Below the pieces are notes generated by a model. The model had not been told where the DNA came from. It searched no databases and saw only the letters and a list, made by a program, of their open reading frames with translations. Source: Puniceibacterium antarcticum (GTDB lineage: Bacteria > Pseudomonadota > Alphaproteobacteria > Rhodobacterales > Rhodobacteraceae). From it: a DNA stretch of 60,600 bases. The stretch's first letter is position 1. Every line of letters starts with the position of its first letter. The DNA lies in assembly GCF_002760615.1 (NCBI RefSeq), contig NZ_AWWI01000122.1, forward strand, positions 1 to 60,600, read 5' to 3'. The position numbers and the translations under genes are program-made. Shown piece by piece: positions 5,322 through 50,827 of the stretch.

Positions 5322-6479
5322 ATGTATTACCTTGATGGCCTCGCCAGCTGGCCAATGCGTCCGGAAGCCAAGGACGTTCTTATTGAGGCGCTGGCTCAAC
5401 CCGGAAACGCGAACTCCAATCACGTTGCAGGCTGGCAGGCTAACCGCCTCTACGAAAAAGGAAGGAGGGCCGTTGCGACCCTCATCGGTGCTGCGCCAAA
5501 CGAGATCTTCATTACCTCGGGCGCTACTGAGGCAAACGCGCTCGCGATCATAGGGACTTCGCGCGCCGTTGCAGAACAGTTTCCGCACAGAAACAAAATC
5601 ATTCTGTCCGCGCTGGAACACGACGCGGTTCGACGTCCTGCGGAAGCACTGCGCGAGTTGGGCTTCGAGGTCCTGATGTGTCCTGTCGGCATAAATGGTT
5701 CGATTTGCCTGGAAAGTCTCGAGGCTCTTTTGGGCGAGACCACACTGCTCGTCAGCACAATGCTTGCAAGCAATTTAACGGGTGTAATCCAACCAATTGA
5801 AAAGATAAGTGAAATGGCGCATGCCGTCGGCGCGCTCATGCATGTCGATGCTGCTCAGGCCGCGGGCAAGCATCCGATCGACGTATTCGATCTCGGTGCC
5901 GATTACCTCAGCCTGTCGGCTCATAAATTTGGGGGACCACAGGGTGTCGGTGCACTTTTTGTGGCCGCCAACGCCCCAAAGCCAACCGAGCTGACATCCG
6001 CAAGACAGTTGGAAGAGCATCTGAGCGGAACGCAACCAGCCGCGTTAGTTGCGGCAATGGGCCGTGCAGCCGAGATATCGGCTCAGAATATGGCGCGAGA
6101 GTCTGTCCACAGTAGGGGTCTGATATCCCTGTTCGAGGAGCAACTCTCTGGCGACGGCTTGCGTGTGGAACGGCTTTTCCCATCAAGTCCGGCGGTTCCT
6201 GGAGCTGCCGCATTCATAGTCGACACGCCGGCGAGCTCAGATCTGATCGACAGTCTGAACACCAAAGTATGTCTTTCGAACGCGTCTGCCTGCCATTCCG
6301 GTTCATTGCAGCCTTCGCCGGTTCTTTCCGCGCTGCATCTCACTCATGACGAGCAGAAACGCTTCCTGCGTATAGGTGTCGGGTGGTGGCTTTCTGAAGA
6401 CGATATTGGCTCGGCGACGGCGATCATGGTCGGCGCTGTGGAGAAAGTCCTCCTTGCTACTGGTGAGCTTCACCAGTAG
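5322..6479 (+). CDS. sspA: cysteine desulfurase, SspA/DndA-like
   Basis: This PLP enzyme releases sulfur from cysteine; in phosphorothioation systems it feeds sulfur to the DNA-modifying ATP pyrophosphatase. It has 385 residues, the normal length for NifS/IscS-type enzymes. The PLP lysine is in SAHKFGGPQGVGALF (about K202) and the persulfide cysteine in ASACHSGS (about C324). The HVDAAQAAGK stretch is also typical. The ATG at 5322 has only a distant GGAG upstream. The gene is followed after 9 bases by the DUF4007 gene and then the ATPase and PAPS-reductase-like genes. That order is why it is called sspA rather than a housekeeping iscS. A general desulfurase role is the alternative. Confidence 0.85.
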   Translation: MYYLDGLASWPMRPEAKDVLIEALAQPGNANSNHVAGWQANRLYEKGRRAVATLIGAAPNEIFITSGATEANALAIIGTSRAVAEQFPHRNKIILSALEHDAVRRPAEALRELGFEVLMCPVGINGSICLESLEALLGETTLLVSTMLASNLTGVIQPIEKISEMAHAVGALMHVDAAQAAGKHPIDVFDLGADYLSLSAHKFGGPQGVGALFVAANAPKPTELTSARQLEEHLSGTQPAALVAAMGRAAEISAQNMARESVHSRGLISLFEEQLSGDGLRVERLFPSSPAVPGAAAFIVDTPASSDLIDSLNTKVCLSNASACHSGSLQPSPVLSALHLTHDEQKRFLRIGVGWWLSEDDIGSATAIMVGAVEKVLLATGELHQ

Positions 6480-6488
6480 CATGGGCTT

Positions 6489-7415
6489 ATGGCCGATGTA
6501 TTTGACAATTGGTCCGGCAAACCGCAATTCGCCGGGCACGAAACATTCCCGCTGCGCATCCTTTGGTTGCGCAAAGCATATGACGCGGTTCGCGGTGGCG
6601 CCCCGCTGACGGTATTCAAGGACGACGAAGCCATCTCCCGGTTCGGCGTTGGCCGAAACATGGCTGTTTCAATGCGATTTTGGGCGCAAGCCGCGGAAGT
6701 TATCCAACTCGACGGCAAGGAGTTAAAGCCTGACAATTTGGGTGACCTGCTCTTCGGCGAGAACGGATTTGACCCTTTTCTGGAGCATCCGACCTCTCTG
6801 TGGCTCATCCATTGGAAGCTTGCATCGGTGCCGGAGCACACCACAACTTTCTACTATTGTTTCAACGGGTTATTTGGCCACGAGTTTCGATCGACAGATT
6901 TGGTGGATGTCATCGAGAAGTTGATCGAGCAAAAGGGATGGCGTGGTGCTCACAAGACTATCCAGAACGACGTCACGGTCTTTCTGCGGAGCTACTGCAG
7001 CCGACCGAGCGGGGCGATGGATGACGCTGCGGAACCCTTGCTGGCTGAACTGGCATTGGTCCAGGAGACCGGCTCGAGCGGATGGTACGAATTCTCGATT
7101 GGCCCAAAGCCGAACCTTCACGACGCCCTGTTCGCCTACGCATTGGATGCCTACTGGACTCGCGCGCACGACAACCGCGCGACGCTCGCCGCAGAAATGA
7201 TCTGCCACGACGCCGGCAGTCCCGGCCGGGTGTTTAAGATGGACGAAGACAGCGTCATCGAACGGCTGATGCGGATCGACGAAAGCACTGGTGGCGCTTT
7301 CGTCTGGACCGATACGGCAGGCCTGCGACAAGTCCAACGGAATCGGCGTCCTGACTTGGATGCTCTGCTGCAAAGCGCGTTTGGCGAGATTGCGCGCCGC
7401 GGAAAGGCTGTATGA
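6489..7415 (+). CDS. sspB: DUF4007 protein, SspB-like
   Basis: The 308-residue protein has the DUF4007 opening pattern (QFAGHETFPLRILWLRKAYDAV) and the continuing FGVGRNMAVSMRFWAQA. DUF4007 proteins occur beside PAPS-reductase-like genes. In the SspABCD system the member SspB is described as the nickase that opens the strand for sulfur insertion. No catalytic residue can be pointed to with confidence here. It lies 9 bases after the cysteine desulfurase gene and 1 base before the likely ATG of the next gene, so it is in one operon with both. Confidence 0.8.
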   Translation: MADVFDNWSGKPQFAGHETFPLRILWLRKAYDAVRGGAPLTVFKDDEAISRFGVGRNMAVSMRFWAQAAEVIQLDGKELKPDNLGDLLFGENGFDPFLEHPTSLWLIHWKLASVPEHTTTFYYCFNGLFGHEFRSTDLVDVIEKLIEQKGWRGAHKTIQNDVTVFLRSYCSRPSGAMDDAAEPLLAELALVQETGSSGWYEFSIGPKPNLHDALFAYALDAYWTRAHDNRATLAAEMICHDAGSPGRVFKMDEDSVIERLMRIDESTGGAFVWTDTAGLRQVQRNRRPDLDALLQSAFGEIARRGKAV

Positions 7416-7416
7416 C

Positions 7417-10400
7417 ATGGCGCGTGAAACGCTCTCAGACAAAGTCAGACTGAACGGCCGGTTCGTACGAAGCGCGCGGATCGACATGGATCTGACCGGC
7501 ACGCCGCCCCTTCAAGGTTATGTGCTCCAAGCCAGTACCGAAAAATTGCTCCTCGCGATGGCCGCATCGCTATCGGAGGGAGCACAAAGTGCTTTTACCT
7601 GGACAGGACCCTACGGCGGCGGCAAGTCGAGTACCGCACTGCTTTTGGGTAACCTGGTTGCCGGTTCCAAAGAGGGAAGGTCTCTCGCTCGGAAGATCGC
7701 CGGTCCGAAGCTGTCAAAGGCAATTGAGAAAGCCTTTGATCCCGGCTTGGGTGGTTGGAGCGTTATTCCGGTTACCGGAAGCCGTGTTAGCCTGAGACAG
7801 GCCATCGCCGAGAAGATGGCAGAGCGATACGGGTGGACACGCGCAAAAAAGGACCGCGCGACAAAAAGCGATGGCCAACTCGTCCAAGACATATCTGATC
7901 ACGCAAGTCAGGGACCAATTATTCTGGTTCTGGATGAACTGGGAAAGTTCCTCGAAGCCGCGGCCGATAAAGACCACGATGCGCACCTCCTGCAGGATCT
8001 GGCTGAGATAAGTGCCAGAAGCGAAGGCCGTTTCGTTGTGATCGGAATCTTGCATCAGGCTTTTGAGGCATATGCGGACAAGCTCGCTTCGAGCGCCCGT
8101 CTCGAATGGGCGAAGATCCAGGGGCGGTTTCAGGATCTCTCCTTCCTTTCCGCAAGTGATGAAACGGTCAGGCTGCTCGGGCGGGCGATCGATACGGATA
8201 ATATCCCTAGCACAGCGGAAGCGCAGGCCAAAAGCTTGGCCAAAATCGTCGGTTCAAATCGACCAACGGACGAAGAGGAGCTGACCGAGGCGCTTTCGCA
8301 GACCTGGCCTTTGAACCCGATTTGCGCGTTGTTGCTCGGCGGCATCACGCGCCGAAGTTTCGGTCAGAACGAGCGTAGCATCTTCGGATTCTTGGCGTCC
8401 GAAGAACCTGGGGGGTTTCGTGAGTTCCTGAAGTCCACATCGGCGACGTCAGGGGAAACCTTCGGCCCCGATCGTCTTTGGGACTATCTTCAAACGAACT
8501 TTGGTCTTGCTCTTGCGGCTGGTCCGTTGGGGTTTCAAATGACGCTCGCGGCGGAGGCAATCGAGAAAGCGAACGTGCTCGGAACCGACCTTCACGTTAG
8601 GCTGACGAAATCTGCCGCACTCATTGAGATATTCAAGAACGGGACTGGATTGGCCGTCGATCAAGACGCCCTTTTGATAGCAGTTCCGGAAAGCCACATC
8701 TCTGATATTACAGGGGCACTCGACGAGCTATGTGATTGGGGAGTCATGCTTCGCCAGAAGCGAGTGGGCGGGTATGCGCTGTTCTCCGGCAGTGATTTTG
8801 ACCTCGATGCGGCTTTAGAGAGATTTGGCGGTCGGACGACCTCCTCCGATCTTTCCCAAGTCGCCGCAAAAGCGGGCTTCGACCACATTGTCGCTAAACG
8901 ACATTACTTCGATTGCGGCGTGCTGCGGACCTTCGCGTTCCACGTAGAGTGCCTTGGGGACCAATTCGATCCAACTGAGTTCAAGCGCACAGTAGGTCGC
9001 AAGGCGTCATCCGCGAGTGGTGTCATGGTAATGGCTATCGCGCCCCAAGACGCGCGCTCACCGGACATCGAAGCGAAGATGGATGACATTGTTCGACTCC
9101 TGGAGGGCACGGGAATTGTGAGTGCAGTCTCTTTGGTCGGAGATGGGAAGCGGTTGATCGAAGATGCGGGCGACTTAGCGGCATTGTCTCAAGTTCAAAA
9201 GCATGTGCCGCAGATCGCAGGTGATAGGATCGCGCGGCGCGGAATTCGTGCGCGCGAAGCATTGCTGCGCAACCGCTCGAATGTCGAACTCCAGCGATTG
9301 ATGTTGTCGAGCCAATGGCAAATCTTAGCAGCAAACGCCTCCGAGTTGGTGTTCTCCCTATCTGCCGCCGCATCGCGCCTGGCTGATGTTGCATATCATT
9401 CGACGCCAATCATCCACAGTGAATTGCTGCAAAAGGACAGGCCTTCCTCGAGCGCCGCGGCTGCTCTTCGAGCGCTTTGCCATGCTATGGTTCAGAGCCC
9501 CGACCAGAAGAGCCTTGGTTTCGTAGGGTTTCCCGCTGCATTCGGTCTCTACCTCACGACTCTTGCTCCGAATGGTTTACATCGAAAGACCAAGTCAGGT
9601 TATGGTTTTGCCGAGCCAGATTCGACCAAAATTGGCGTCTCCCTGAAGCCAGCCTGGAAGGTCTTGCACTCGAAGAAAGAGCAGTCGCTGGCGGATGTCT
9701 ATGAGACTTGGCGGGGCGCGCCCATTGGTATGAAGTATGGTGTGATGCCGGTTTTGGCGCTCGCATTCATGCTTGCAAACCGGCAGAGCTATGCGGTCTA
9801 CCAAGACGGTCGCTTTGTTGCAGCGCTCGATGACATCTTTGTCGACAGGATGCTTCAAGATCCTTCGGCCATCGTTTTGAGGCCAGCCGGACGTTCGGAA
9901 CACCACCTAGCATTCCTCTCCCGTCTTGCAGAAGCGCTAAATCAATCTGATGCATCTGCACTGACCGTAGCAAGTGCAACCTTTCAGCGTATCGAGGCAT
10001 TGAGCGACTTTGCCAAACGAACCAATCGCGTCTCGGCCGACACGCGGAAGATACGAGATGCGATACGGCATGCAGACGATCCGGAAACACTCCTTTTCGA
10101 AACGCTTCCCGGTTTGGATATCAAGGGTGATCTTGTAGATAAGACCATTGCGGCGATTGAAGAGTGTGAAGCGGCTTATGACGTCCTCGCCAAGGAATTG
10201 CGACACGCGCTGGCGCAATCCATCGGTGTTCCAAGTGACACATTTTTTGGAAGTTTTGAGCGTGCAAAGTCCATCAAGGGTTTAAGTTCTGACCTCAAGT
10301 TCGAGGCATTCGCGGCGCGTGTAGGGGAGCTTGAAGCAGGGGCCGGCGGCTTAGAGGCGGTGGCCGGAACCCTGCAACCGAAGCCCATGCGCGACTGGTC

Positions 10401-10719
10401 TGACCGTAACTGCGAAGGAGCTCTGTCTGAGGTCGCCAGGCTTGGGCGCCGTTTCAAGCAGGCCGAGGCCGTTGCGTTGATGCGCGACCGAAAATCGAAC
10501 ACGGAAGCAATAGCTCTCATTGTAGGTGTCGATCCCAAGCAGCCGCCAATCCTTCAGAGTTTCGAACTTAGCGAAAGCGAAAAAGTAGCTGCAAGCAAGC
10601 TTGCAGACCAAATCCTTCGGAGTCTTGACCAAAGTGAACATGGTCATGTGCTCTTGCTAGCGGCTCTCGCTCGGGCTGTTGCGGCGCTCACCGACAATAT
10701 GGACAAGATCGAAGCATGA
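7417..10719 (+). CDS. sspC: large P-loop ATPase, SspC-like
   Basis: The ATG at 7417 is preferred over the longer frame from 7291: GGAAAGG lies 9 bases before it and it follows the sspB stop directly. The product has 1100 residues. Walker A (GPYGGGKSS) is at about 64-72 and a Walker-B-like ILVLDEL at about 169-175. The rest has no domain recognised by eye. In SspABCD systems the third gene is an ATPase that works with SspB and SspD in phosphorothioation; its exact step is less well defined. The stop overlaps the next gene by ATGA, giving translational coupling. Confidence 0.8.
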   Translation: MARETLSDKVRLNGRFVRSARIDMDLTGTPPLQGYVLQASTEKLLLAMAASLSEGAQSAFTWTGPYGGGKSSTALLLGNLVAGSKEGRSLARKIAGPKLSKAIEKAFDPGLGGWSVIPVTGSRVSLRQAIAEKMAERYGWTRAKKDRATKSDGQLVQDISDHASQGPIILVLDELGKFLEAAADKDHDAHLLQDLAEISARSEGRFVVIGILHQAFEAYADKLASSARLEWAKIQGRFQDLSFLSASDETVRLLGRAIDTDNIPSTAEAQAKSLAKIVGSNRPTDEEELTEALSQTWPLNPICALLLGGITRRSFGQNERSIFGFLASEEPGGFREFLKSTSATSGETFGPDRLWDYLQTNFGLALAAGPLGFQMTLAAEAIEKANVLGTDLHVRLTKSAALIEIFKNGTGLAVDQDALLIAVPESHISDITGALDELCDWGVMLRQKRVGGYALFSGSDFDLDAALERFGGRTTSSDLSQVAAKAGFDHIVAKRHYFDCGVLRTFAFHVECLGDQFDPTEFKRTVGRKASSASGVMVMAIAPQDARSPDIEAKMDDIVRLLEGTGIVSAVSLVGDGKRLIEDAGDLAALSQVQKHVPQIAGDRIARRGIRAREALLRNRSNVELQRLMLSSQWQILAANASELVFSLSAAASRLADVAYHSTPIIHSELLQKDRPSSSAAAALRALCHAMVQSPDQKSLGFVGFPAAFGLYLTTLAPNGLHRKTKSGYGFAEPDSTKIGVSLKPAWKVLHSKKEQSLADVYETWRGAPIGMKYGVMPVLALAFMLANRQSYAVYQDGRFVAALDDIFVDRMLQDPSAIVLRPAGRSEHHLAFLSRLAEALNQSDASALTVASATFQRIEALSDFAKRTNRVSADTRKIRDAIRHADDPETLLFETLPGLDIKGDLVDKTIAAIEECEAAYDVLAKELRHALAQSIGVPSDTFFGSFERAKSIKGLSSDLKFEAFAARVGELEAGAGGLEAVAGTLQPKPMRDWSDRNCEGALSEVARLGRRFKQAEAVALMRDRKSNTEAIALIVGVDPKQPPILQSFELSESEKVAASKLADQILRSLDQSEHGHVLLLAALARAVAALTDNMDKIEA

Positions 10720-11552
10720 CCAACGAACGACACATTCTCGGGATATCGGGCGGCCGCGATAGTGCGGCCTTGGCTGTCTATATGCGTCAAAACCACCCCG
10801 ACATCGACATGGAGTACTTCTTCACCGACACAGGGAAGGAACTACCAGAGGTCTATGACTTTCTTAACAGGCTTGAGGGGTTCCTTGGCAAGCGGATCAA
10901 TCGATTGAACCCGGATCGGGATTTCGATTTCTGGCTTGCCGAGTATGGGCATTTCCTACCGTCGGCCAAGACGCGTTGGTGCACACGACAGCTTAAGTTG
11001 AGGCCATTGAACCTATGGCTGCGTGACGACTTGGAGAAAGGCGTAGTCGTCCATTCCTACGTCGCGATTCGGGCCGATGAGCCAAATCGGTCTGGATACA
11101 AATCGCAGCATCCAAACATGTTGGTTCGCTTTCCACTTCGGGATGCCGGCATCGACAAGGCAGGTGTCGTCGGCTTGCTGAAAGACACTGACATCGGCGA
11201 GCCAGAATACTACCGCTGGCGGTCTCGGTCAGGATGCACCTTCTGCTTCTTCCAACAGAAGATAGAATGGGTGCGTTTGATGGAAGAGCATCCTGAAGCA
11301 TTTGAAGAAGCCCGCGCCTATGAGAAAACGGCTGAGGAACACGGCTCCCCCTTCACCTGGAGCGATGGTGAAAGTCTAGACGACCTCGCCAAACCTGAAC
11401 GTGTTGAGGCGATCAAGGCGGATTACGAAAAGCGCCGGGCCCGCGCCATGCGCGCCGTGCGACCCAACCCACTGTCAGCGCGCTCCGAGCCGTCGATCGA
11501 CGAGATTTTTGGTGTCTCTGAGGGAAATTCATGTGTTATTTGCCACAAATAG
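10716..11552 (+). CDS. sspD: PAPS-reductase-like ATP pyrophosphatase, SspD/DndC-like
   Basis: The 278-residue protein begins with a PP-loop, GISGGRDSAALAVY (about residues 9-22), typical of the PAPS reductase/DndC family. This family activates the DNA backbone oxygen for replacement by sulfur. Conserved cysteines occur at TRWCTRQLKL, SGCTFCFFQQK and near the end at SCVICHK; they could bind an iron-sulfur cluster or pass sulfur. The gene overlaps the SspC-like gene by 4 bases. It completes the modification set with the upstream cysteine desulfurase. A true PAPS reductase in sulfate assimilation is unlikely in this neighbourhood. Confidence 0.85.
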   Translation: MTNERHILGISGGRDSAALAVYMRQNHPDIDMEYFFTDTGKELPEVYDFLNRLEGFLGKRINRLNPDRDFDFWLAEYGHFLPSAKTRWCTRQLKLRPLNLWLRDDLEKGVVVHSYVAIRADEPNRSGYKSQHPNMLVRFPLRDAGIDKAGVVGLLKDTDIGEPEYYRWRSRSGCTFCFFQQKIEWVRLMEEHPEAFEEARAYEKTAEEHGSPFTWSDGESLDDLAKPERVEAIKADYEKRRARAMRAVRPNPLSARSEPSIDEIFGVSEGNSCVICHK

Positions 11553-11618: not shown

Positions 11619-14024
11619 TTGTTTAAAGTTACAGCGAGAACTGTTTTGGAACTAGGGTCTGAGCTCATTAGCTCAGACCCAATCGCGTTCTACGAACTGA
11701 TTAAAAACGGTATCGATGCTGGATCGAAAGATGGCGTAACTATCTTATTTGACATTGTCTTGCCGCGCAGAGATCTTGAGGAAGCTAAAGCACAAATCAA
11801 TCGCGCGATTTCGACTGATCAATTTGGCCCTGAAGGTGAGACCTGGGACTTTGAAGAGCTGAAGAATTGGATTTCCGCGAAATTAGTTACAGAAGCCGGG
11901 GTGCTTTGGGATCAGGCCGCAGAACTGATTGAGCAGAGCAGAAAATTTGAAGATCTCCTTCATGCCCTTGATAAAATCAATGGGTTAAACACGATCACCG
12001 TCAGGGATTCTGGCTCTGGAATGTCGTTGGATGATCTGAGCTCGCTTTTTCTCGTCATCGGCACACCTTCGCGTCGCAAAGACATTGATGCCGCCATTTC
12101 GGATGGGGCGTCAGATACACCTTATCTAGGAGAGAAGGGGATCGGGCGCCTCTCGGCGATGCGTTTGGGAGACGAACTGTCGGTCCGTACGGCCCAAAGG
12201 ACTGATGAACATTTCAGTCTCATCAACATAGACTGGTCCGCTTTTGATGACCCTTCAAAAATGATCGAGGACATTGAGATCAAACCAAAGCGGGGTGCTG
12301 AAAAGCCGAACCCTGATTTTAGCGGTACAGACATCCGTATCCACCGCCTAAACGCTGACTGGTCGGAAAAGCGCGTAGAGCGGCTTGCCATAGATGACTT
12401 GTCTCTACTCGTGAATCCGCTGGGAAAGAAAACCCGTCAACGGATTGCGGTATTCTGGAACGGGAAACGGGTAGCGATCCGTCGCTTGGAGCGGAGCTTT
12501 CTGTCTCACGCAAATGCGGTCGTTCGGGGGTCATACAAAGTTAGCGAAACCGGACCGGAGCTTGAGCTGCGTATCGAACTCAACAATCTTGGATTTAAGC
12601 ATCCCAAAGAAATTAGTATCGAAACAGCGACGGCGGACGTTCTACATGGCGCATTGGTTGGACCCAAAGCCAAACGCCGCCGCATGAACAAGCGAGACAT
12701 AGACTACACAGCACTGCGTTCAGTTGGTCCGTTTGACTTTGAGTTACATTGGTTCAACCGCTCGATACTCCGCAAAGGTAAGTCGACGGGCGACTACCAA
12801 GCCTTACGCAATCTTCTGGATCAATGGATGGGTGTCAGGCTTTATAGGGATGAGTTCCGAGTTTATCCGTATGGTTCAGAAGATGACGACTGGTTAGAGC
12901 TCGACAAGACGGCCCTGGCCTCAAAGGGGTATGCCTTGAACCGTATCCAGCTTGTCGGGCAAGTCGAAATAGGTCGCTTATCCAACCCAAGCCTCATTGA
13001 TCAAACTAATCGTGAGGGTCTTCGTCAGACGCCAGAAGAGGCAATTCTCAAGGAGACAGTACAGTTCGCGGTCGAACGTCTGCGTGATGAGATGAATCGT
13101 ATCACCCGGGAACAGAAAGACGCCAAAGAACCCTTCATTGTAGATGAAACAAGGACTGTGGATCTCGAGAAGCGAATGAAAAATACCATTCGCGCGATCA
13201 GCAAAGTTGTGCCAAATGAACATCGCAATGCCGTAGAAGAATTGGAGCTTATGCGAGAAGAATTTTCTCGATACGCGGCGCAAGCACGCGAGCGGATTGC
13301 AGATATGGAAAAGGACGCCGATCAGATGCTTGTTATGGCGGGGATTGGCTTGATGGTCGAAGTTGTTGCTCACGAGCTGACTCGGTCCGCCGAAGATGCC
13401 CTCGATATCCTCAATGGACTACGCAAGAAATCTGTTCCCGACGAAATCCGTCGTCGGTTGGAGAGTTTACGTGCCTCGATGAACAGCATTAGCAAGCGTC
13501 TGCGCATTCTAGACCCTTTAAGCGTCACCGGACGACAGCGGAAAGAACGCTTCAAACTCGATGAACTCGTGGAAGAGATTATAGAGGCGCACGAAGCCCA
13601 ATTTGAGCGTCACAAGGTCAAGCCCAACGTCTTGTTACCCGACAAGCCTATTGAGATATCCGCCGTAAAAGGCATGGTAGTTCAGGTTTTGGAGAACTTG
13701 ATATCCAACTCCGTTTACTGGATGGACGTTGAAAAGCAACGCAAGCTCTCGCTAGAGCCCGAGATAACAATCGTGGTGGAAGACAATCCACCTCGCATTA
13801 GATTCAGTGACAATGGCCCCGGTATCTCAAAGCAATACCGGGATCGTATCTTCGATCTGTTCTTTTCGCTCAAAGACAAAAGCCGACGCCGTGGGCTGGG
13901 ATTGTTTATTGCTAAGGAGGCAGCAGAGCACAACGGCGGTAGCCTGACATTGGATCCAGATATGACCAACTCTGAGGGTCGGTATACGACTTTCGACTAT
14001 CGCGTGGTGGGCGAGGGAGCATGA
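11619..14024 (+). CDS. double GHKL ATPase: Hsp90/MORC-like module plus histidine-kinase-like module
   Basis: The TTG at 11619 is the start: the frame has a stop (TAG, 11616-11618) just before it, and AAAGG lies 8 bases upstream. The product has 801 residues. The N-terminal GHKL fold shows ELIKNGIDAG (about 26-35), DSGSGMS (about 130-136) and GEKGIGRLSAM (about 171-181). A second module at the C-terminus is histidine-kinase-like. It has an H-box-like VAHELTRSAEDAL with His about 585, then VLENLISNS, FSDNGPGIS and GLGLFIAKEAA. A coiled region (about 520-570) joins them. It overlaps the receiver-like gene by ATGA. It probably senses an infection or DNA state and signals to that partner, but this is inference. 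Confidence 0.75.
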   Translation: MFKVTARTVLELGSELISSDPIAFYELIKNGIDAGSKDGVTILFDIVLPRRDLEEAKAQINRAISTDQFGPEGETWDFEELKNWISAKLVTEAGVLWDQAAELIEQSRKFEDLLHALDKINGLNTITVRDSGSGMSLDDLSSLFLVIGTPSRRKDIDAAISDGASDTPYLGEKGIGRLSAMRLGDELSVRTAQRTDEHFSLINIDWSAFDDPSKMIEDIEIKPKRGAEKPNPDFSGTDIRIHRLNADWSEKRVERLAIDDLSLLVNPLGKKTRQRIAVFWNGKRVAIRRLERSFLSHANAVVRGSYKVSETGPELELRIELNNLGFKHPKEISIETATADVLHGALVGPKAKRRRMNKRDIDYTALRSVGPFDFELHWFNRSILRKGKSTGDYQALRNLLDQWMGVRLYRDEFRVYPYGSEDDDWLELDKTALASKGYALNRIQLVGQVEIGRLSNPSLIDQTNREGLRQTPEEAILKETVQFAVERLRDEMNRITREQKDAKEPFIVDETRTVDLEKRMKNTIRAISKVVPNEHRNAVEELELMREEFSRYAAQARERIADMEKDADQMLVMAGIGLMVEVVAHELTRSAEDALDILNGLRKKSVPDEIRRRLESLRASMNSISKRLRILDPLSVTGRQRKERFKLDELVEEIIEAHEAQFERHKVKPNVLLPDKPIEISAVKGMVVQVLENLISNSVYWMDVEKQRKLSLEPEITIVVEDNPPRIRFSDNGPGISKQYRDRIFDLFFSLKDKSRRRGLGLFIAKEAAEHNGGSLTLDPDMTNSEGRYTTFDYRVVGEGA

Positions 14025-15964
14025 ACGATCGACGTCAGGTAGCGAATGCTGGTCTCCGATCCGCTATTATCGTGGACGACGGTTACGATGTGATCCCACT
14101 GGTTGATGAACTAAGAGACGAAGAAGGCTGGGATAATTTCTTTGATGATGTTCAGGTCGGCGACGAGGATCGAATTATCGCTTTTTATCCGGACTTCGAT
14201 ATTGGCGATCGAGACCGGCTTAAACAAGAACAAGGATTTGTTACGGCCCTGTGGGAGAACCGCAACGCAGTAAACGACCTCTTGGGCGATTTGTTTGCCA
14301 ATTATGAGCAGAAGGCGGCCGATAATGCACCCTTCCTTCGGTCGGCAGAGGCGGCACTTAGTGCGCTAGGAATTCCGTTTACGACTCATGGGCGTGACTT
14401 CGTTGCCGCAGCCGCATCTGCTGATCTCATTCTCATCGACTTGTTTCTGGGAATTCAGCAAGGCGCCCGAGATAGGGAGGTTACGGTTGAGCGCTTGAAA
14501 GAGGTGATCGACATGCGGAATGGGCCCCTCCCGTCAATCGTATTGATGTCCCAGATACCGACAATCGATGACCTGGCGAAGGAATTTCGCAATGATGTTC
14601 AGCTTCACGCGTCGGCTTTTCGTTACGTCCGCAAGAACGATCTCTCTGTCCCTGGGCGTGTTCGAGGCCTGATTCTGACGCTCGCGGCGCATCGCTCAGA
14701 CAGCCTAGCCTTGGCAACATTTGTCGATACGTGGGAACAGAAAGCCATTGAAGCCGTAGGAAAAGCAGCTGCCTCACTGCGAAAGATCGATATCGATGAT
14801 CTTCAGCATATTCGCACCATGCTCTTGCGTTTCGAGGGAGTAAATACTTCAAGCTATATGCTCGATGTATTCGATCGTGTTTTACAGTACCAAATCGAAG
14901 CACATGACGAGGTTCTCGAGGCCGCAGTTCCGCTTGATGAAATGGCTGACGATCCGCCACCGTTGATGATCTCGAATGATCGCGACACTTTTTCGATTCT
15001 GGAACAAACATTATTCGTTAATCCCTCCCGACGGGCACATGCGACAGGTGCGGTATGGCCAGTGACCTTCGGAGATATCATTGGGCCGAGACTCGGAGCT
15101 CCAGACAAACCTCGCGGGTTTTTCGGAGGTAGGAGAGATTTGGTATTCTTCGTCGCGTCGCCAGAGTGCGATCTCATTCGCACAGATGGTTTGAAAACTG
15201 TTTTGCTCGTTGCCGGAACGCTTGAGGAAGTTGATATGGCCAAACCTGTTCTCGGTGTATCAGGGAATACAACTCCGATCCTCAACTATGCTGGTGTTGG
15301 GCGCTTCCAGATTACTTGGGACTTCGGAGATCTTAGAACAATTGGCTTGTCGCGGGCGAAGGGGCTTTTGAGACCCGGTGGTGACGCAACCATTTTGGGA
15401 CGTCTTCGGGATGTTACGGCACTAGGTTTGAGACAACAGCTGCTTGGAAATGTCGGTAGAGTAGGTGAAATGGCACCTCTCCCACGATCATTCGCGTTTG
15501 ATGCAGAGGTACATTTTCCTCAAGCAGACGGAACGGTTGCACGGCTTGCTTTGCCGGATGGCGTGCAAATTCGTGGCAACATGTTGGTCCCACGCAAAGC
15601 GCGTTCCGCGAACCTCGTTCTCGACTCGAACTGCGAGAACGAGTTAACGCGAGCGATTTTGGACCTCGATATCGCAACTGTTCATCAAAGCAGCCGTGCC
15701 CGCATTAGCAAGTTGAAGGAACAAAGCCAGCTCAGAAAGCTGTTTCGGTCAGGACTTCAGTGGACAACGCTCCCCTTGCAAGGTGCGCGTGAAGCTGAAC
15801 TACTGAAGGATGGTGAGCCGTTACCCGATGAAGACGACAAGAAGCCAAAGACAGAGAAGATCGGCAAGATCGTCTTTGAACCGGATATCGTCGGTCAACT
15901 GGGTGCCGATCTAAGAAAGGCGGGGCTCATTTTCAGAATCAACGTCGAGGAGGTACCCGCTTAA
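14021..15964 (+). CDS. receiver-like protein with unknown C-terminal region, partner of the double GHKL protein
   Basis: The 647-residue protein overlaps the GHKL gene by 4 bases. The first 210 residues resemble a response-regulator receiver with a long insertion. The acidic pair is in IIVDDGYD (D19, D20) and a candidate phospho-acceptor in DLILIDLFLG (about D140). A Ser is in VLMSQIP (about S177) and a Lys in YVRKNDL (about K205). The remaining 430 residues are mixed alpha/beta with no fold recognised and no DNA-binding motif seen. It may be the effector switched by the kinase-like partner. The family is not recognised; the receiver reading is moderate because the insertion is unusual. Confidence 0.6.
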   Translation: MNDRRQVANAGLRSAIIVDDGYDVIPLVDELRDEEGWDNFFDDVQVGDEDRIIAFYPDFDIGDRDRLKQEQGFVTALWENRNAVNDLLGDLFANYEQKAADNAPFLRSAEAALSALGIPFTTHGRDFVAAAASADLILIDLFLGIQQGARDREVTVERLKEVIDMRNGPLPSIVLMSQIPTIDDLAKEFRNDVQLHASAFRYVRKNDLSVPGRVRGLILTLAAHRSDSLALATFVDTWEQKAIEAVGKAAASLRKIDIDDLQHIRTMLLRFEGVNTSSYMLDVFDRVLQYQIEAHDEVLEAAVPLDEMADDPPPLMISNDRDTFSILEQTLFVNPSRRAHATGAVWPVTFGDIIGPRLGAPDKPRGFFGGRRDLVFFVASPECDLIRTDGLKTVLLVAGTLEEVDMAKPVLGVSGNTTPILNYAGVGRFQITWDFGDLRTIGLSRAKGLLRPGGDATILGRLRDVTALGLRQQLLGNVGRVGEMAPLPRSFAFDAEVHFPQADGTVARLALPDGVQIRGNMLVPRKARSANLVLDSNCENELTRAILDLDIATVHQSSRARISKLKEQSQLRKLFRSGLQWTTLPLQGAREAELLKDGEPLPDEDDKKPKTEKIGKIVFEPDIVGQLGADLRKAGLIFRINVEEVPA

Positions 15965-16045: not shown

Positions 16046-16984
16046 TCAGCTGGATAAAGTACGGCCCCTAACCAGTATTTCTTGGCCAACTTCGATGCGA
16101 TATTGCGCAGGGAAGAAGTGCATCATCCAGCGCTTGAGAATTCTCCAGGCGTCAGTCGGACTGATCATTGATGACGCATCGATATACTCTGCGATCAAGT
16201 CGGCCGCTTGAGTATCCGAAACCCCTGAACTGCTGGCAGAAACCACTTTTTGGACGACTTCCAACTTTTGGAGCCGATCTGCAACGTACTCCAGGAACTG
16301 TTCCTCCGAGTAACCTTTGGGCGGACCCAGTGTTCTCAAATCGCGTTGTGCGAACTCGAAGGCCGACCGGACCATCTTTGCCTCGTCAAGCTCGCCGGTA
16401 TACACTTTGAATAGCCGTTCTGGCGACGGGCAGAGGGGTATCCATCGGAAAGTCGGATCATCGTCGTGCTCAACATCGATCGAGGTTTTCTTTGGACGCT
16501 GAGCCGCCAAGTCTGCGGCCTGGTGCGCGATCTGATCACGCAGTTCGACTGTCACTGAGACGCAGCTGCTCATTAAGGATGTTTCCCACGCCTGGAGCTC
16601 ATGTAGGTTCATATCTAGCTGAACAAGGAGTTCGAGATTGGTCGGGAGGCGCCAACCGAGTGCTCGCCCGGTCAGATTTGAGGAGCCGAGGAGACAAGAT
16701 TGGTCGGCCCTGAAGAATTTGGCATGCAGGTTTGGGTGCCTCCAAAGCTGCGCGTTCTCGCGATCGGTAATGACCTCGAAGATCTCCAAGTCACAGACGC
16801 CGTCTACGATATCTTCGGGCCGCCAACGCGTTACGCAGTCGATATGGAGCCCTGCCGAGATTGGGATGGCGTCCAATACCCGCTGGAGCGCATCGACCTT
16901 AATGAAGGGCGCAACGAGGACAACTCGCTCTTTCGCCGATGACACTAGTTCCAGCAGTTGGTCGCCCAGCATCTCACCCGCCAT
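16046..16984 (-). CDS. phospholipase D-like nuclease domain protein
   Basis: The product has about 312 residues. One HKD-type motif is visible: NLHAKFF with His/Lys near 87 and 89, followed by LLGSSNLTGRALG. The N-terminus (LLELVSSAKERVVLVAPFIK) is typical of PLD-like nucleases and helicase-linked PLD domains. With a single motif it would act as a dimer. The start ATG overlaps the upstream GHKL stop as TGATG, so it is the last gene of the helicase/GHKL/PLD operon. In that setting it is the best candidate for the DNA-cutting subunit. It faces the receiver-like gene tail to tail, 81 bases away. Confidence 0.75.
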   Translation of the reverse strand: MAGEMLGDQLLELVSSAKERVVLVAPFIKVDALQRVLDAIPISAGLHIDCVTRWRPEDIVDGVCDLEIFEVITDRENAQLWRHPNLHAKFFRADQSCLLGSSNLTGRALGWRLPTNLELLVQLDMNLHELQAWETSLMSSCVSVTVELRDQIAHQAADLAAQRPKKTSIDVEHDDDPTFRWIPLCPSPERLFKVYTGELDEAKMVRSAFEFAQRDLRTLGPPKGYSEEQFLEYVADRLQKLEVVQKVVSASSSGVSDTQAADLIAEYIDASSMISPTDAWRILKRWMMHFFPAQYRIEVGQEILVRGRTLSS

Positions 16985-18816
16985 CAATCATCCTCGCCAT
17001 CGTCCAGGAAGAACCGGGTCATCTTGCCCCACTCTTGACGCATGTCCGATAGGCGTTGCTTATGCCTGACTTCTTCCATTTCGTAGCGAGCCCAAGCCGA
17101 AAACACGATGCGCAGTGTGTCAGAAGCCATGTGTACGCGGTCGAGCAGTTCCTTTTCGGTATCTTCTTCTGTGTCCGGGTTCAGCGCTCTCACCAGGTTT
17201 TCGTAGAACGGATGGTTGGAATTGAAGATAACGTTGGTGACACCGCCTTGGACGCTCTCCACGTTGAAGAACGCATAGCCTTCCATGGCTTTTTCGAGGA
17301 AAGCAACCTTGCGCTTTCTCGTAAGGATGGCGTCAGCAATGGCTTTGGCGACGTCGTCGGGATAGTGCTTGTCGTCCTTCAAGTCGTCTTCATAGGCATC
17401 CCGGTCATCGGCTCCAAAATCCTCCGTGTCTCCTGGCGTCTCATGTCCCTCGTCCGCACGCTGACGGAATTTCGAGGTGACTGTGTCTTCTACGCCTGGT
17501 TCTTCGTGACGTTTGCGACCGCCCGTGCTTCTTGTGCCTTTCGTCTGCTGTTCTGTTCTTTTCCTCAGTTGGGTGATCTGTTCCCGGATGTGCTCGACGA
17601 TAGGGATTAGGAGCGCCCGCGGGTCACCTTCGCTGCTCGCTCGTTCAATGAAAGAGGAGCGGCTTTCATTTTCTTCCGCGTCGGCCTTCCAATCATATTG
17701 GGCCAGTTGCGAAAAGATCGTCGCACTTTGCTTGTTGTTCGTTACGCCGAAGATTTCGTCGAGCGTGGCAGGGAATTCGACCTCAGCTCCCCACCATCGT
17801 TCGGTGGGATCATAGCTGTTGGTCCAAGATGTATCCAAATCGAGTTCACGACCTTCTCGAACGATCGAAAGGCCGAGGTTCTTCATGGCATGTTTGCCAT
17901 ACGGCTTTGCGCCGCGATTCAGCCCGTCATCAGGCACGGTTTCCGGCTTGGCCCAACTGAATCTGACAAATACTTTATGCTGCTTGCCTCCAAGATCGAT
18001 TGTGAACTCTTCGTCGTTCTCGCCCCAACGTTGAAACATTGCAACCTTGTCAAAAGGTTCGGGAGTGGAGGAGTTCGGCATAAGGTAGAGGGGATCATTG
18101 ACAACCGCCAACCGGCGGCCGGTGTTCCCACCCTCTTCCACCCGTACGAGATGAATGGCGACACGGCCATCGTTAATGAACTTGCGATACATCCGGCCGA
18201 TGATCGCCTCGGTGTTTCGCAGGGTCGCCTCAGCGCCTCGCCATGTAAGTCGATACTCTTCAAATCGCGACCAGACCACGAGTGTACCGGAGGTCCCCAA
18301 GATTTCGGACCGTTCGCGCCATTTGCTGGGAAGGGCTGAAGGAGTTGGCGGCGGCACCCGATCTTTCACACCGCTTTGAATGTCAGCGACATCCAGATAG
18401 GAATGAATGGCATTGTCCGGCCCGTTCGTCCAAGTCCAGACATCCAAACGGCGACATTGCGAAATTGACGAGTTTGGAAGTCCCATGCCGAACCGTCCAA
18501 TGCCAGCTCGATCATCCAGGTGAGTGCCGTTTCCAAACTGCAGAGCGATGGCCAATGTTCGTGCGGACATGCCCTTGCCGTTGTCGATCGTGCCGATTTC
18601 CTGCAGGCGAAGGCGCTGCTGAGAATTTACCTGTTCGTACTTCTCGACACAGATGAGCTCAACTTCACTGGCGTCAGCCTGAATTGAGTTGTCGATCAGC
18701 TCTGCGAGAGCGTATGCGGTATTTCGATACCCACTATCGCGCATCGCTTTTACGGCGAGTTCCGGTGGAATAATGAACCCGGATTCAGTGGTCCCGTCGC
18801 TAACAATTTCGTTCAT
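16984..18816 (-). CDS. GHKL (Hsp90/MORC-like) ATPase
   Basis: The ATG at 18816 has GGGAAG 9 bases before it; an ATG at 18825 is the alternative. The product has about 610 residues. Its N-terminal GHKL fold has ELIDNSIQA (about 39-47), DNGKGMS (about 78-84) and GIGRFGMGLPNSSIS (about 105-119), the pattern of MORC-type ATPases. The middle is a basic, low-complexity linker. No nuclease motif was seen. It overlaps both the helicase gene upstream and the PLD gene downstream, so the three should form one complex. MORC/Hsp90-like ATPases recur in bacterial defence islands next to helicases and nucleases. Confidence 0.75.
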   Translation of the reverse strand: MNEIVSDGTTESGFIIPPELAVKAMRDSGYRNTAYALAELIDNSIQADASEVELICVEKYEQVNSQQRLRLQEIGTIDNGKGMSARTLAIALQFGNGTHLDDRAGIGRFGMGLPNSSISQCRRLDVWTWTNGPDNAIHSYLDVADIQSGVKDRVPPPTPSALPSKWRERSEILGTSGTLVVWSRFEEYRLTWRGAEATLRNTEAIIGRMYRKFINDGRVAIHLVRVEEGGNTGRRLAVVNDPLYLMPNSSTPEPFDKVAMFQRWGENDEEFTIDLGGKQHKVFVRFSWAKPETVPDDGLNRGAKPYGKHAMKNLGLSIVREGRELDLDTSWTNSYDPTERWWGAEVEFPATLDEIFGVTNNKQSATIFSQLAQYDWKADAEENESRSSFIERASSEGDPRALLIPIVEHIREQITQLRKRTEQQTKGTRSTGGRKRHEEPGVEDTVTSKFRQRADEGHETPGDTEDFGADDRDAYEDDLKDDKHYPDDVAKAIADAILTRKRKVAFLEKAMEGYAFFNVESVQGGVTNVIFNSNHPFYENLVRALNPDTEEDTEKELLDRVHMASDTLRIVFSAWARYEMEEVRHKQRLSDMRQEWGKMTRFFLDDGEDD

Positions 18817-20452
18817 TCCAAACATCTTCCCAATTGCAGAAAGCGTCAGCTACATCTCCGAAGCCGTGCATTTCAGTATCCGTCACCGTGACAATCTCTG
18901 AGGTTTCATTTCCCCCAGCTCTTACACCTCGCGTAGCCCGGCCCACCATTTGGCTAAAGAGAACCAAGGATTTGGTCGGGCGGGCAATGATGGCCGCGCT
19001 CGTTTGCGGTGCATCGAATCCAGTTGTCAGAACGCCATAGTTGAACATCACAATAGGTTCCGGCGCCTGGCTCTTGAAGCGTCGAATTGCCCGTTCGCGA
19101 GCCGCCGGAGCGGATTCTCCGGTGACGACAAGTGCTTCGGTGCCGCGTGCGACCATGATGGCTGCCAGCATCCTAGCGTTGGCAACCGATGGGGCAAAGA
19201 CAATGACGCGGCGATGGGATGACACGAGATGCTCGCACTCTGAAATTATCCTGAGGTTTCTTTGTGTGCTTTGACCTAGTCGCTCCAGAACGTCCCCCGG
19301 CACATCAATCGCCTGTGACAGGCCCTTCATGTCCTCTTGTGACAAGTCGAGTCCGGCCTGCACATTCAGAGTCCGGAAGTGCGGACGGGCAAGATAGCCT
19401 TCTTCCATCAGATATGTGACCGGGTCGGGGTGGCCTTCGATTTCCAACATTACCTTTTCACGACCGAAGAATTCGGAGAGCTCTTCGTCTTTGCTCAAAT
19501 CATCCCAGGTTCGTCCGGGAGTGGCCGTAAGGCCAAGGAGACGCGTCGTCGCCCGTTTTGTTGCTAGGGCGTCAAGTACAGAGCGATATGTTGGAGCGAT
19601 CGCTTGGTGTGCCTCGTCGATGATGACCAAAGATACTCGGTCAGCCAAAGTGAGCAATTCATTCACCGAGTTCTTTTCCAATGCTGACATTTTACCTAAG
19701 CCAGCGACAACTAGCCCGTCCTTGGCGTTGGCAAGATCGACACGCTTGTTTCCCCAAAGCCGCCAAAGCCCGACATCCCTGTTGCCAAGGAAGCGCCACG
19801 ACTTCTGAAACTCATCTGCGGCTTGATCGAGAAGCTCTATGTTCTGGGCGAGCCATACGACCAGTGTCGGCTCACTGGCGCTCAGGTGGGATGCGACAAG
19901 GTGCATTGCGGTACGTGTTTTTCCTGCGCCTGTTGGCATGTGCAGGACACCACGGTGGGGGCCCTCGAAGAGCATCCGTTCAGTGCGCCTTGCCGCCACT
20001 CGCTGATGCTCAAAGAGCCCATAGCCGACGGGCGCGCGATCATTTCCTGGTAGCTGCGCCCCTGGGGCAGTCGGGTCATCGATGACCCCAAAAAAGGAAA
20101 GCAATGCTGGGAAGTTCTCTTCGTCCGACGCGAGCTTCAGTGCATCATCGAAAGGGTTTCGCCCGGCTGGTGTCCCGAGTTTTGTGCAAAGCTCGCGCGC
20201 CTTCTTCAGCGGCATCAGAGAAATCACGGAGTCCCGCAACGTATCGTTCTGCAGCGTCTCGGTAGGATCCAGCATGTTCACTGCCAACGCAGTCAATTTC
20301 TTTGAAGTGCTGAAACCCGGTTCTAACCCATCCAGAATGTCGAGCATTTCGTCAGGAAGAAGCGCCTTTACCCTCCCGGGCTTCGCCAGCATTAGAAGTT
20401 TGGAAAATGCAAGGCCCGGCGAATCCAAATCAATGTCTGTATCGGATGACAT
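18800..20452 (-). CDS. superfamily 2 DEAH-type helicase
   Basis: The 550-residue protein has an N-terminal helical region of about 140 residues and then two RecA-like domains. Walker A is MPTGAGKTRTA (about 172-182), the DEAH box is VIIDEAHQ (about 276-283), motif III-like LGLTATPGR follows, and motif VI is QMVGRATRG. It should translocate on nucleic acid using ATP. It is the first gene of a minus-strand operon with the GHKL ATPase and PLD protein. Together with the sspABCD-like genes this resembles a restriction arm acting on unmodified DNA. The relation to the published SspFGH set is possible but not verified here. Confidence 0.8.
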   Translation of the reverse strand: MSSDTDIDLDSPGLAFSKLLMLAKPGRVKALLPDEMLDILDGLEPGFSTSKKLTALAVNMLDPTETLQNDTLRDSVISLMPLKKARELCTKLGTPAGRNPFDDALKLASDEENFPALLSFFGVIDDPTAPGAQLPGNDRAPVGYGLFEHQRVAARRTERMLFEGPHRGVLHMPTGAGKTRTAMHLVASHLSASEPTLVVWLAQNIELLDQAADEFQKSWRFLGNRDVGLWRLWGNKRVDLANAKDGLVVAGLGKMSALEKNSVNELLTLADRVSLVIIDEAHQAIAPTYRSVLDALATKRATTRLLGLTATPGRTWDDLSKDEELSEFFGREKVMLEIEGHPDPVTYLMEEGYLARPHFRTLNVQAGLDLSQEDMKGLSQAIDVPGDVLERLGQSTQRNLRIISECEHLVSSHRRVIVFAPSVANARMLAAIMVARGTEALVVTGESAPAARERAIRRFKSQAPEPIVMFNYGVLTTGFDAPQTSAAIIARPTKSLVLFSQMVGRATRGVRAGGNETSEIVTVTDTEMHGFGDVADAFCNWEDVWNERNC

Positions 20453-20639
20453 GGCCTGCTCGCTGCCCTCTCAATCGTTCTGGAACAATTGCTGGCAGGT
20501 TACGGTGGTTCTGAATAACGCGCCACCTTGAAAGCAGAATTTGCTTCCGTTTCGTCATAGAACGCTTGTTGCGAAGGATTAGCATACCCTCGATCAAGAC
20601 GGTTGGGTGCGTGAATCAAGTCGGTAGACTAGATAATCC
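20453..20639. other. intergenic region between the helicase operon and virB6
   Basis: These 187 bases lie upstream of the helicase operon and downstream of virB6 (both minus strand). They hold an operator-like dyad AAGCA-N5-TGCTT at 20532-20546, on the promoter side of the helicase gene. No gene, clear terminator or confident -35/-10 pair was seen. It marks the right edge of the defence island inside the conjugation genes. Confidence 0.35.
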
Positions 20640-21719
20640 TTACCGTCTGCCTAATCTCCCCAACCTAGAAAGCTGTGCCAGCATCCGAGCGCCAGTTCCG
20701 GTCCCGTCGCCGGCAGGAGATGCAGTTGGCCCACCCGCTGTATTGGGCCGGCGTGGCAACGCTTGCACACCGAAGAATTGTCGCGCTCGAAGGGCTGCGT
20801 ATTCAGCCCCGGTTGCACCCCCGATGGCGTAACGGTTGTAAACCTGTTGGCTACCTGCCAGCCCTCTGGCGAACGCATAGCTCCCCCCGAACCCTGCCGA
20901 AAGTGCCGGCATCATGATGTTGCCGGAAATTGCCCGAACCAAAAAGGGCGTTGCAATGATGAAGCCTTTTGCCATCAGCACCATCATGAAAAATGGGATA
21001 AGGGCCCCTATGTTCGAGGCTCCCTCCGGGTCGCCCAGTTCGGCAAGAAGAGCCCGAGAAACCCCCGTGATCGTCGCGAACACGCCAGCTACGACGATCG
21101 GATACATCGCAAAGGATATGAGTGCCGAAAGCCAGCGCGCGAAGTAGTCCTTGGTCACCTCGAAAAGGGTCAGGAAGATCATGACCGGCGCAATGCCGAT
21201 TAGAAGAGCGATCATGAGCCGTGACGCCACAACAATGAACGCTGCCAACCCGCCCAAAATTGAGAGCAGTAGGACGCCGAGCGTGTCCAGCAAGGCACCG
21301 GCCATCCAGTTTAGCTCAGATCCCGCCGCGTTCAGATAGTCCCCGAGGGCTGCGATCAGTTCGTCGAATTCCTCCGCAAAGGTTCCGGACGGACCTGGTG
21401 ATCCGCCGCCGACAGAAGCCACAAGGGCCCCGGCAATGCTGTCGATCCCATTCAGTATCGCTGAGGCAACCGCATTGAACTGGACCCAATTGGCCGCGAA
21501 GACTCCTATCAGCCCGACCTTCACGGCCAGCCAAAAGGCAGTTCGGCCGTCCATGGCGCGATACTGGTAGATCATGTTGATGAAGACCAGAATGACAACC
21601 AGTGTTGTGCCCAGAACCAGCAACGTGCCCACCGTTGCTGCGACCGCGCCGAATTGCGTCTCGGCAGCGGTATTGAGATAGCCTTCGGCCGTTTCCACGA
21701 AGTAGGTGACGACACTCAT
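20640..21719 (-). CDS. virB6: VirB6/TrbL-like polytopic inner-membrane protein
   Basis: The 359-residue product has several hydrophobic segments: about 22-52, 62-95, 140-180, 185-230 and 235-265. The central region WMAGALLDTLGVLLLSILGGLAAFIVVASRLMIALLIGIAPVMI is VirB6-like (quoted in part: LMIALLIGIAPVMIFLTLF). It forms part of the inner-membrane channel of the type IV apparatus. A Gly/Pro-rich basic tail ends the protein. It is the last gene of the virB operon, following a small secreted protein gene by 6 bases. The order virB11 before virB6 is a known variant in alphaproteobacterial plasmids. Confidence 0.8.
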   Translation of the reverse strand: MSVVTYFVETAEGYLNTAAETQFGAVAATVGTLLVLGTTLVVILVFINMIYQYRAMDGRTAFWLAVKVGLIGVFAANWVQFNAVASAILNGIDSIAGALVASVGGGSPGPSGTFAEEFDELIAALGDYLNAAGSELNWMAGALLDTLGVLLLSILGGLAAFIVVASRLMIALLIGIAPVMIFLTLFEVTKDYFARWLSALISFAMYPIVVAGVFATITGVSRALLAELGDPEGASNIGALIPFFMMVLMAKGFIIATPFLVRAISGNIMMPALSAGFGGSYAFARGLAGSQQVYNRYAIGGATGAEYAALRARQFFGVQALPRRPNTAGGPTASPAGDGTGTGARMLAQLSRLGRLGRR

Positions 21720-21725
21720 GGATAC

Positions 21726-23298: not shown

Positions 23299-23302
23299 GG
23301 GC

Positions 23303-25374: not shown

Positions 25375-25376
25375 CG

Positions 25377-26030: not shown

Positions 26031-26047
26031 CCGTCATGCCCCCACGA

Positions 26048-50797: not shown

Positions 50798-50827
50798 GGG
50801 AAACCTCTGAGAATAAGCGTTGAGCCA

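Follow-up and report, generated by a model that had tools for sequence, protein, structure and literature searches.

A phosphorothioation-linked branch of the HEF_HK/Response_reg_2 kinase-receiver family beside sspABCD in Puniceibacterium antarcticum

This study analyzed a 60,600-nucleotide stretch of Puniceibacterium antarcticum DNA (hereafter, the window; contig NZ_AWWI01000122.1), in which two overlapping genes at 11619-15964 encode a histidine-kinase-like protein with two GHKL ATPase modules and a predicted receiver-domain partner. The results revealed that the pair is genuine and well conserved, that it represents a phosphorothioate-linked branch of a kinase-receiver family already described in print, and that kinase and partner are inherited as one unit. 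The original prediction, made from the sequence of the pair, had regarded it as distinct from classical regulators. A new architecture was rejected, because PMC8011034 had described a HATPase_c_3+HEF_HK+HATPase_c kinase beside a receiver gene in 2021.

The sections of PMC8011034 consulted define this family (HEF_HK/Response_reg_2; PF19191/PF19192), describe its adjacent receiver gene and its linkage to restriction-modification (R-M) genes, and propose that it controls R-M systems. The window kinase has the domain composition of their group 1, and the pair shares with the family both the adjacent receiver gene and the linkage to DNA-modification genes. It differs in lying beside ssp phosphorothioation genes and not beside a methylase gene, and in having a receiver insertion of about 70 residues, a longer C-terminal tail, and a borderline HEF_HK match. 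Furthermore, none of 15 partners matches Response_reg_2 (PF19192) at E up to 1, yet these partners are homologous to those of the methylase-linked branch by profile (97.5%, E 8.6e-12, 331 columns, from the receiver to the output domain). The main text of PMC8011034 contains none of the terms "phosphorothio," "sulfur," "Ssp," and "DUF4007."

A histidine kinase adjoining ssp genes has likewise been reported from Acinetobacter. The portion of PMC7464106 consulted describes kinase genes adjoining "SspE" in 211 Acinetobacter strains and speculates that the kinase regulates SspE; that of PMC12421847 describes a histidine kinase next to Acinetobacter ssp, suggests a possible new Ssp variant, and states that sspE was not alongside in 5,518 of 5,530 cases. 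The "SspE" of PMC7464106 may be the receiver partner. In those portions, neither paper analyzes the kinase architecture, the receiver partner, the family, or a link beyond Acinetobacter. The words "histidine kinase," "receiver," "GHKL," and "two-component" do not occur in the main text of PMC10853773, a paper on phosphorothioation genes, and the open-licence literature searched yielded no description or test of the wider Ssp-linked branch.

Linkage of the pair to ssp genes

Relatives were gathered through the kinase or the partner, and never through ssp, from plasmids, GTDB contigs, and IMG/VR. All 17 loci with a complete Ssp-branch kinase (the window, L001-L008, L010-L016, and L031) carry SspB and/or SspC, and so does an eighteenth, L032, whose kinase is cut by the contig. 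The plasmid records with a near full-length kinase (H1-H16) all fall, 16 of 16, among the 69 SspD-bearing records of 72,556; because near-copies recur by species (four Acinetobacter, two Agrobacterium), the number of independent plasmids is nearer 12. Neighborhoods were fetched for 12 of the 16 records, with H3, H13, H14, and H16 omitted. The pair directly adjoins an ssp modification gene in 11 of the 17 loci (the window, L004, L006-L008, L011, L012, L014-L016, and L031), and in L004, a Chloroflexota plasmid, it lies inside the operon, between sspC and sspD. The hosts of the branch span Alpha-, Beta-, and Gammaproteobacteria and Chloroflexota.

In the window, PADLOC recognized all four modification genes, and the pair lies directly downstream of them (5322-11552) on the same strand:

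5322-6479, plus strand: sspA, cysteine desulfurase (PADLOC SspA, 1.7e-92)
6489-7415, plus strand: sspB, DUF4007 (PADLOC SspB, 2.9e-100; PF13182, 1.9e-78)
7291-10719, plus strand: sspC, ATPase, true start probably near 7430 (PADLOC SspC, E=0, 1056 bits)
10716-11552, plus strand: sspD, PAPS-reductase family (PADLOC SspD, 3.2e-130)

The original prediction had placed the pair in a defence setting, and the survey of homologue neighborhoods agrees: ssp genes were found at 17 of 17 loci, not a non-defence context. Taken as a whole, its observation was confirmed and its interpretation was partly supported, while the upstream sspABCD context had been missed. Queries of 385, 398, and 292 genomes with the partner matched only the genome of origin; three GTDB contigs were matched, viral scans using single proteins gave no match, and a phage collection gave five partial matches.

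Two branches of the family

The IMG/VR relatives were bimodal against the Ssp-branch kinase profile, with two at 580-781 bits and 77 at 298 bits or less. Both high-scoring loci adjoin ssp, and SspB/SspC were found in 0 of the 77 low-scoring loci. A small profile set detected a C5/N6 methylase or Vsr near 48 of these 77 and none near the other 29; the count is a lower bound, because three of the 29 (L061, L086, and L091) have adjacent methylase-family genes by Pfam. The same set also missed a D12-class methylase at the Ssp-branch locus L011. Five low-scoring plasmid relatives (L017-L021) were likewise without ssp.

In a tree of 96 kinases (L032, L089, L098, and L108 omitted), the 17 Ssp-linked kinases form one clade with an SH-aLRT support of 99. 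The nearest sisters of this clade, L061, L086, and L091, directly adjoin methylase-family genes, the match in L086 being weak and below the cut-off. Branch labels in the tree were set by kinase score, and this label agrees with the ssp context for the 17 Ssp rows, the 77 low-scoring viral loci, and L017-L021. The simplest reading would be a single switch from methylation to phosphorothioation.

Distances between kinases and partners correlate at 0.97, and at 0.90 without near copies (L006, L007, L008, and L016 dropped). SspB, SspC, and SspD correlate with one another at 0.89-0.98, whereas the correlation of the pair with SspB/C/D is only 0.45-0.56; in this Mantel set SspD is missing in L005, SspB is missing in L002, L010, and L013, and some SspC sequences are cut by the flank. 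High correlations within each unit and lower ones across units suggest that the pair is a swappable module of its own.

A downstream open reading frame (ORF) of 200 amino acids (aa) or more was present in 73 of the 79 viral loci; those without one in the search span were L032, L037, L050, L065, L098, and L108, four of them at contig ends. A hydrophobic-acidic b1 motif occurs in the first 50 residues of 68 of the 73 viral partners, whereas 113 of 698 controls have it, the controls being M-to-stop stretches of at least 200 aa taken from six frames. In some IMG/VR loci, such as L057, L062, and L077, the partner is only about 210 aa long, with little beyond the receiver; this is the smallest form of the pair.

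Conserved features of the kinase and its partner

The two genes and their principal features, all on the plus strand, are as follows:

11619-14024: HEF_HK-type kinase, 801 aa, TTG start (ORF, Pfam, alignments), with the domain order MORC/Hsp90-type GHKL ATPase, linker, DHp with H585, histidine-kinase-type GHKL
11694-11696: E26 codon, candidate catalytic Glu of the first GHKL ATPase (conservation)
13344-13523: HEF_HK (DHp-like) segment, residues 576-635 (Pfam)
13371-13373: H585 codon, candidate phospho-acceptor His (conservation)
13677-13997: second GHKL domain (HATPase_c), residues 687-793 (Pfam)
14021-15964: receiver-domain partner, 647 aa, ATG start, ATGA overlap with the kinase gene
14075-14080: D19/D20 codons, acidic pair ending strand b1 (17/17)
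14081-14296: Ssp-branch helical insertion between b1 and a1, about residues 21-92
14438-14440: D140 codon, candidate phospho-acceptor Asp ending b3 (17/17, 22/22, AlphaFold)
14633-14635: K205 codon, after b5 (17/17)
15038-15520: output domain common to methylase-branch partners, about residues 340-500 (profile comparison)
15167-15169: C383 codon, output domain, invariant (17/17, 28/28)

The TTG start of the kinase lies directly 3' of an in-frame TAG, with the purine-rich AAAAAAGG upstream, and the kinases of L001 and L006-L008 begin at the same residue. Pfam identified HATPase_c_3 at residues 124-224 (1.1e-12) and HATPase_c at residues 687-793 (2.8e-18). The HEF_HK match between them was borderline at 23.3 bits against a cut-off of 24.1, and reached 26.7 bits, above the cut-off, in a genome-frame search. 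All three domains lie within one soluble protein, whose hydropathy maximum of 1.59 is just below the usual membrane cut-off of 1.6.

Conservation of the kinase motifs was complete across the 17 Ssp-branch sequences. The first ATP site (E26, N30, D33, D130, GxGM, and GxKGxG), the second (N693, N697, D731, GxG, and GLGL), and H585, E586, and R589 are identical in all of them, and H585 and E26 are also invariant in a 28-row alignment spanning both branches. Both ATP sites are intact in sequence. By analogy with other GHKL proteins and histidine kinases, E26 is the candidate catalytic Glu and H585 the candidate phospho-acceptor. The two GHKL modules in one protein, and a candidate phospho-His at about H585, had been proposed in the original prediction and were borne out here by the Pfam matches and the intact, invariant motifs. 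Together, kinase and partner have the sequence hallmarks of a two-component system: in the kinase, the H-box His and the N/G1/G2-type motifs, and in the receiver, the acidic residues, a Ser/Thr, and a Lys.

Pfam, PADLOC, and NCBIfam detected nothing significant in the window partner, and fold searches with its full model returned no match at E up to 0.001. Several lines of evidence nevertheless indicate that its N-terminus is a true receiver. D19, D20, D140, and K205 are kept in 17 of 17 partners, S177 in 16 with T in the remaining one, and D140 in all of 22 partner rows. In the AlphaFold model, strands b1 (15-19), b2 (120-123), b3 (136-140), b4 (172-177), and b5 (200-204) were found, with D20, D140, S177, and K205 at the ends of b1, b3, b4, and b5. 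The mean predicted local distance difference test score (pLDDT) of the model is 59.5; among the first 21 ten-residue blocks, 14 reach 70 or more, and the b5 region is lower, at 50-67. In profile comparisons with two canonical response regulators and 11 decoy profiles, the 22-row receiver profile matched the regulators at 85.2% (E 6e-6; decoys at most 3.9%), and the 17-row Ssp-only profile at 45.8% (E 2e-4; decoys at most 4.0%). The alignment pairs the acidic pair and the phospho-Asp with those of the canonical regulators. A viral-contig relative also has a PF00072 match below the cut-off (E 0.0014, residues 127-177), whose span includes the D140 equivalent (residue 143). The hydropathy peak of the partner, 2.07, falls on the b3 region and is read as a core strand.

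These results uphold the receiver-like residues that had been proposed, and structure prediction did recover a receiver topology. The four-base overlap of the genes was located as ATGA at 14021, and the large insertion that had been noticed is real: it is helical, is found in the Ssp-branch partners, and is absent from the methylase-branch partners aligned. The proposed lack of a DNA-binding output also held, since Pfam recognized no DNA-binding domain in any of 15 partners; in this respect the pair is unlike a classical two-component system.

The C-terminus of about 430 residues had been called unknown. That description was partly revised, because much of it is a shared family domain: the region around residues 340-500 is found in part in methylase-branch partners as well. 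This output domain follows the pattern GD, a variable segment, a strand that ends near xPxCD, some 80 or more residues, and RLR...RPG, and its C383 is invariant in all 28 rows across both branches, the 17 Ssp-branch rows included. When the low-confidence model of this domain was submitted to Foldseek, ranks 1, 2, 5, and 8 were MazF proteins (E 0.56-1.7). A MazF/PemK-like assignment was rejected, as it did not rise above decoys in three local profile comparisons; in three global comparisons, the PemK family (a profile of nine sequences) ranked first once, a close second once, and outside the top five once. A weak match between the partner and an SspF profile (P 0.02 among 36 comparisons) was taken as noise. 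The partner is not SspE, because it has no DUF262 domain: Pfam found DUF262/GmrSD-type domains neither in the window pair nor in the 15 partners, and the sole PF03235 match in the genome lies on another contig.

Detocs is a phosphorelay-type immunity without classical transcriptional output, and its architecture and gene set (DtcA, DtcB, and DtcC) differ from those of the pair. The original prediction had already pointed out the difference in gene set. A PADLOC scan gave no Detocs match, although the presence of Detocs models in that release was not checked. Unlike Detocs, the window pair is tied to a DNA-modification cassette.

Companion modules and possible functions

Downstream of the pair, and convergent to it, lies a three-gene module (16046-20452) whose PADLOC matches are to parts of the PbeA, MzaB, and DrmC/ZacB models:

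16046-16987, minus strand: PLD-fold protein, optional companion (profiles)
16984-18825, minus strand: GHKL ATPase with MzaB-like N-terminus (profiles)
18800-20452, minus strand: superfamily 2 helicase, RadD/PbeA-like (profiles)

This helicase-GHKL-PLD module occurs in 3 of the 17 pair loci (the window, L006, and L008). The trio also adjoins ssp without the kinase pair in L110, L113, L114, L116, L127, and L131. In L132 and L135, a helicase gene and a GHKL gene are found, but the PLD score stays below the threshold. The module is therefore a recurrent Ssp companion. SspF, SspG, and SspH (the FtsK/SpoIIIE type) were not found in the window by profiles. SspFGH was recognized in 6 of the 17 loci (L001, L002, L004, L010, L013, and L014), with an SspH fragment at the edge of L003. 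In L001, an IS5-family transposase gene splits sspF (11942-14662) and leaves the pair intact, so the SspFGH companion there may be inactive. A protein of about 810 aa adjoins ssp in 3 of the 17 loci and also in L115:

L007, 11944-14400: protein of about 810 aa
L005, 16618-19038, minus strand: protein of about 810 aa
L016, 11874-14291, minus strand: protein of about 810 aa
L115, 14846-17284, minus strand: protein of about 810 aa

It has a weak HATPase_c_3 match (E 0.006; L005 and L007) and no PADLOC match there, and is a candidate Ssp companion, seen both alongside the pair and in its absence. Profiles recognized no known ssp companion in the remaining four loci (L011, L012, L015, and L031), whose neighbors were only partly scanned with Pfam.

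Other neighbors were also observed. Methyltransf_11-type class I S-adenosylmethionine methyltransferases lie near sspA in L005 (20091-20681, minus strand), L012 (7342-7938, minus strand), and L016 (25950-26543), and the ssp and pair locus of L012 has as a neighbor a 530-aa protein (19404-20996, minus strand) that combines a receiver-like start with TCAD9 and a kinase domain of the APH type. In the window, genes for a relaxase, VirD4, VirB6/TrbL, a VirB11-type ATPase, VirB10/TrbI, VirB8, and VirB4 occupy 788-5115 and 20640-30555. Because relaxase/VirD4 and type IV secretion genes flank them, the defence genes of the window are cargo of a conjugative element. A P-type ATPase gene (minus strand) and an IS66 transposase gene were found at 48446-53358.

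The consulted parts of PMC8092258 describe SspE and SspFGH as optional companions of SspABCD that occur in varied combinations, act additively, and, in the case of SspFGH, accept phosphorothioate marks from another SspBCD; SspFGH is also reported there to be toxic or to damage DNA when sspABCD is absent. The mix-and-match occurrence of the pair resembles these reports, and no domain common to SspE/SspFGH and the pair was detected by profiles. On balance we favor, with about an even chance of being right, the reading that the pair is a phosphorothioate-coupled branch of HEF_HK/Response_reg_2 acting as an add-on sensing or restricting module of sspABCD. Its occurrence as a separate branch beside ssp makes it probably a sensing or restricting arm of Ssp. 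In such a module, the N-terminal MORC/MutL-type ATPase would serve as a clamp, gated by ATP, for sensing DNA or a complex bound to it; closure of the clamp would cause H585 to become autophosphorylated and the phosphoryl group to pass to D140 of the partner; and phosphorylation would switch the C-terminal domain of the partner, which would then exert or license restriction of DNA without the sulfur mark. SspABCD marking would keep this restriction off self DNA. The pair more likely responds to the mark or DNA than to one particular Ssp protein, because pairs of this kind accompany methylases as well as ssp and have been reshuffled between ssp cassettes.

Several findings weigh against this add-on reading. 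The pair is dispensable for ssp: sampling of 385 Alphaproteobacteria and 398 phylum-wide genomes gave 18 ssp loci, and apart from that of the window none (0 of 17) had the pair in the fetched stretch, the short contig L111 being among those checked. The division between the two branches by neighboring genes is imperfect, as the D12-class adenine methylase of L011 (8057-8761) adjoins sspA, and the low-scoring viral loci L076 and L081 have weak SspD-profile matches (62 and 55 bits). The Mantel tests ignore shared ancestry. Phosphotransfer and phage defence by the pair are themselves drawn from sequence, the output-domain model is not confident in fold (pLDDT 57.5), and no nuclease was recognized in that domain. 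Endonucleases qualify the companion-free loci: one of the MrcB_N-HNH type lies about 7 kb off in L031, L015 has a TnsA-like endonuclease beside transposase genes, and the Ssp region of A. baumannii also holds restriction endonuclease genes according to the consulted part of PMC12421847. Finally, 12 or 13 of the 17 pair loci contain a further candidate companion, so the pair may regulate and not restrict.

This last point leads to a possible but rather doubtful alternative, in which the pair is a cytoplasmic regulator that tunes the expression or activity of SspABCD and of any restriction module at the locus, and is not itself an immune sensor or effector. The SspFGH loci with the fragment in L003, the helicase-GHKL-PLD loci, and the loci with the 810-aa protein are all consistent with it, as is the speculation of PMC7464106 (in the part consulted) about the Acinetobacter kinase. 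The absence of a recognized DNA-binding domain from 15 partners argues the other way, as do the low correlation of the pair with SspB/C/D and the four loci without another known companion by profile, of which L015 and L031 are not clean. The companion-free loci favor restriction by the pair itself, and the SspFGH-bearing loci allow either. At its strongest, restriction by the pair would make it a restriction arm complete in itself: a phosphorelay effector standing in for the nuclease-type R component and able to work with methylation as well as with phosphorothioation. At loci where no other known effector was recognized, such as L011, L012, and L015 from Acinetobacter, the whole system would then consist of ssp, kinase, and receiver, and the C383 domain would be a new phosphorylation-gated effector, for which the hint of a MazF-like fold is weak and statistically unsupported. 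We consider this unlikely, the endonuclease of L031 and the endonuclease genes mentioned in the consulted part of PMC12421847 having weakened it.

The relay itself might also be dispensed with, if the pair were a MORC-like ATPase complex whose kinase-like part and receiver formed a nucleotide-driven conformational switch without His-Asp phosphotransfer. The part of PMC2292703 consulted proposes that MORC/paraMORC ATPases loop DNA in R-M operons without phosphorelay, and the window kinase likewise has an N-terminal GHKL module with intact motifs in a DNA-modification setting, its first ATPase site being fully conserved at the checked residues. Unlike those proteins, the window ATPase is joined in one chain to a histidine-kinase core and has a receiver protein as its partner. 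All 17 loci keep H585-E586, the N/G1/G2-type residues, and the acid/Lys set of the receiver unchanged, a conservation for which a dead relay would have no need. A switch of this kind seems improbable. That the pair merely travels with mobile defence islands, functionally uncoupled from ssp, is very improbable. The conjugative element of the window and the many relatives on plasmids accord with a passenger, but the confinement of all 16 kinase records to the few SspD-bearing plasmids, the position inside the ssp operon in L004, and the match of one clade to one context do not.

Restriction-modification is usually seen as a mark and a nuclease. Here a kinase and its receiver accompany the enzyme that makes the mark, irrespective of the chemistry involved, which suggests a coupling of self-marking to phosphorelay in bacteria. 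The pair is also a candidate for the partner that the Ssp cassette lacks in most ssp-bearing A. baumannii genomes, as far as the consulted part of PMC12421847 describes them.

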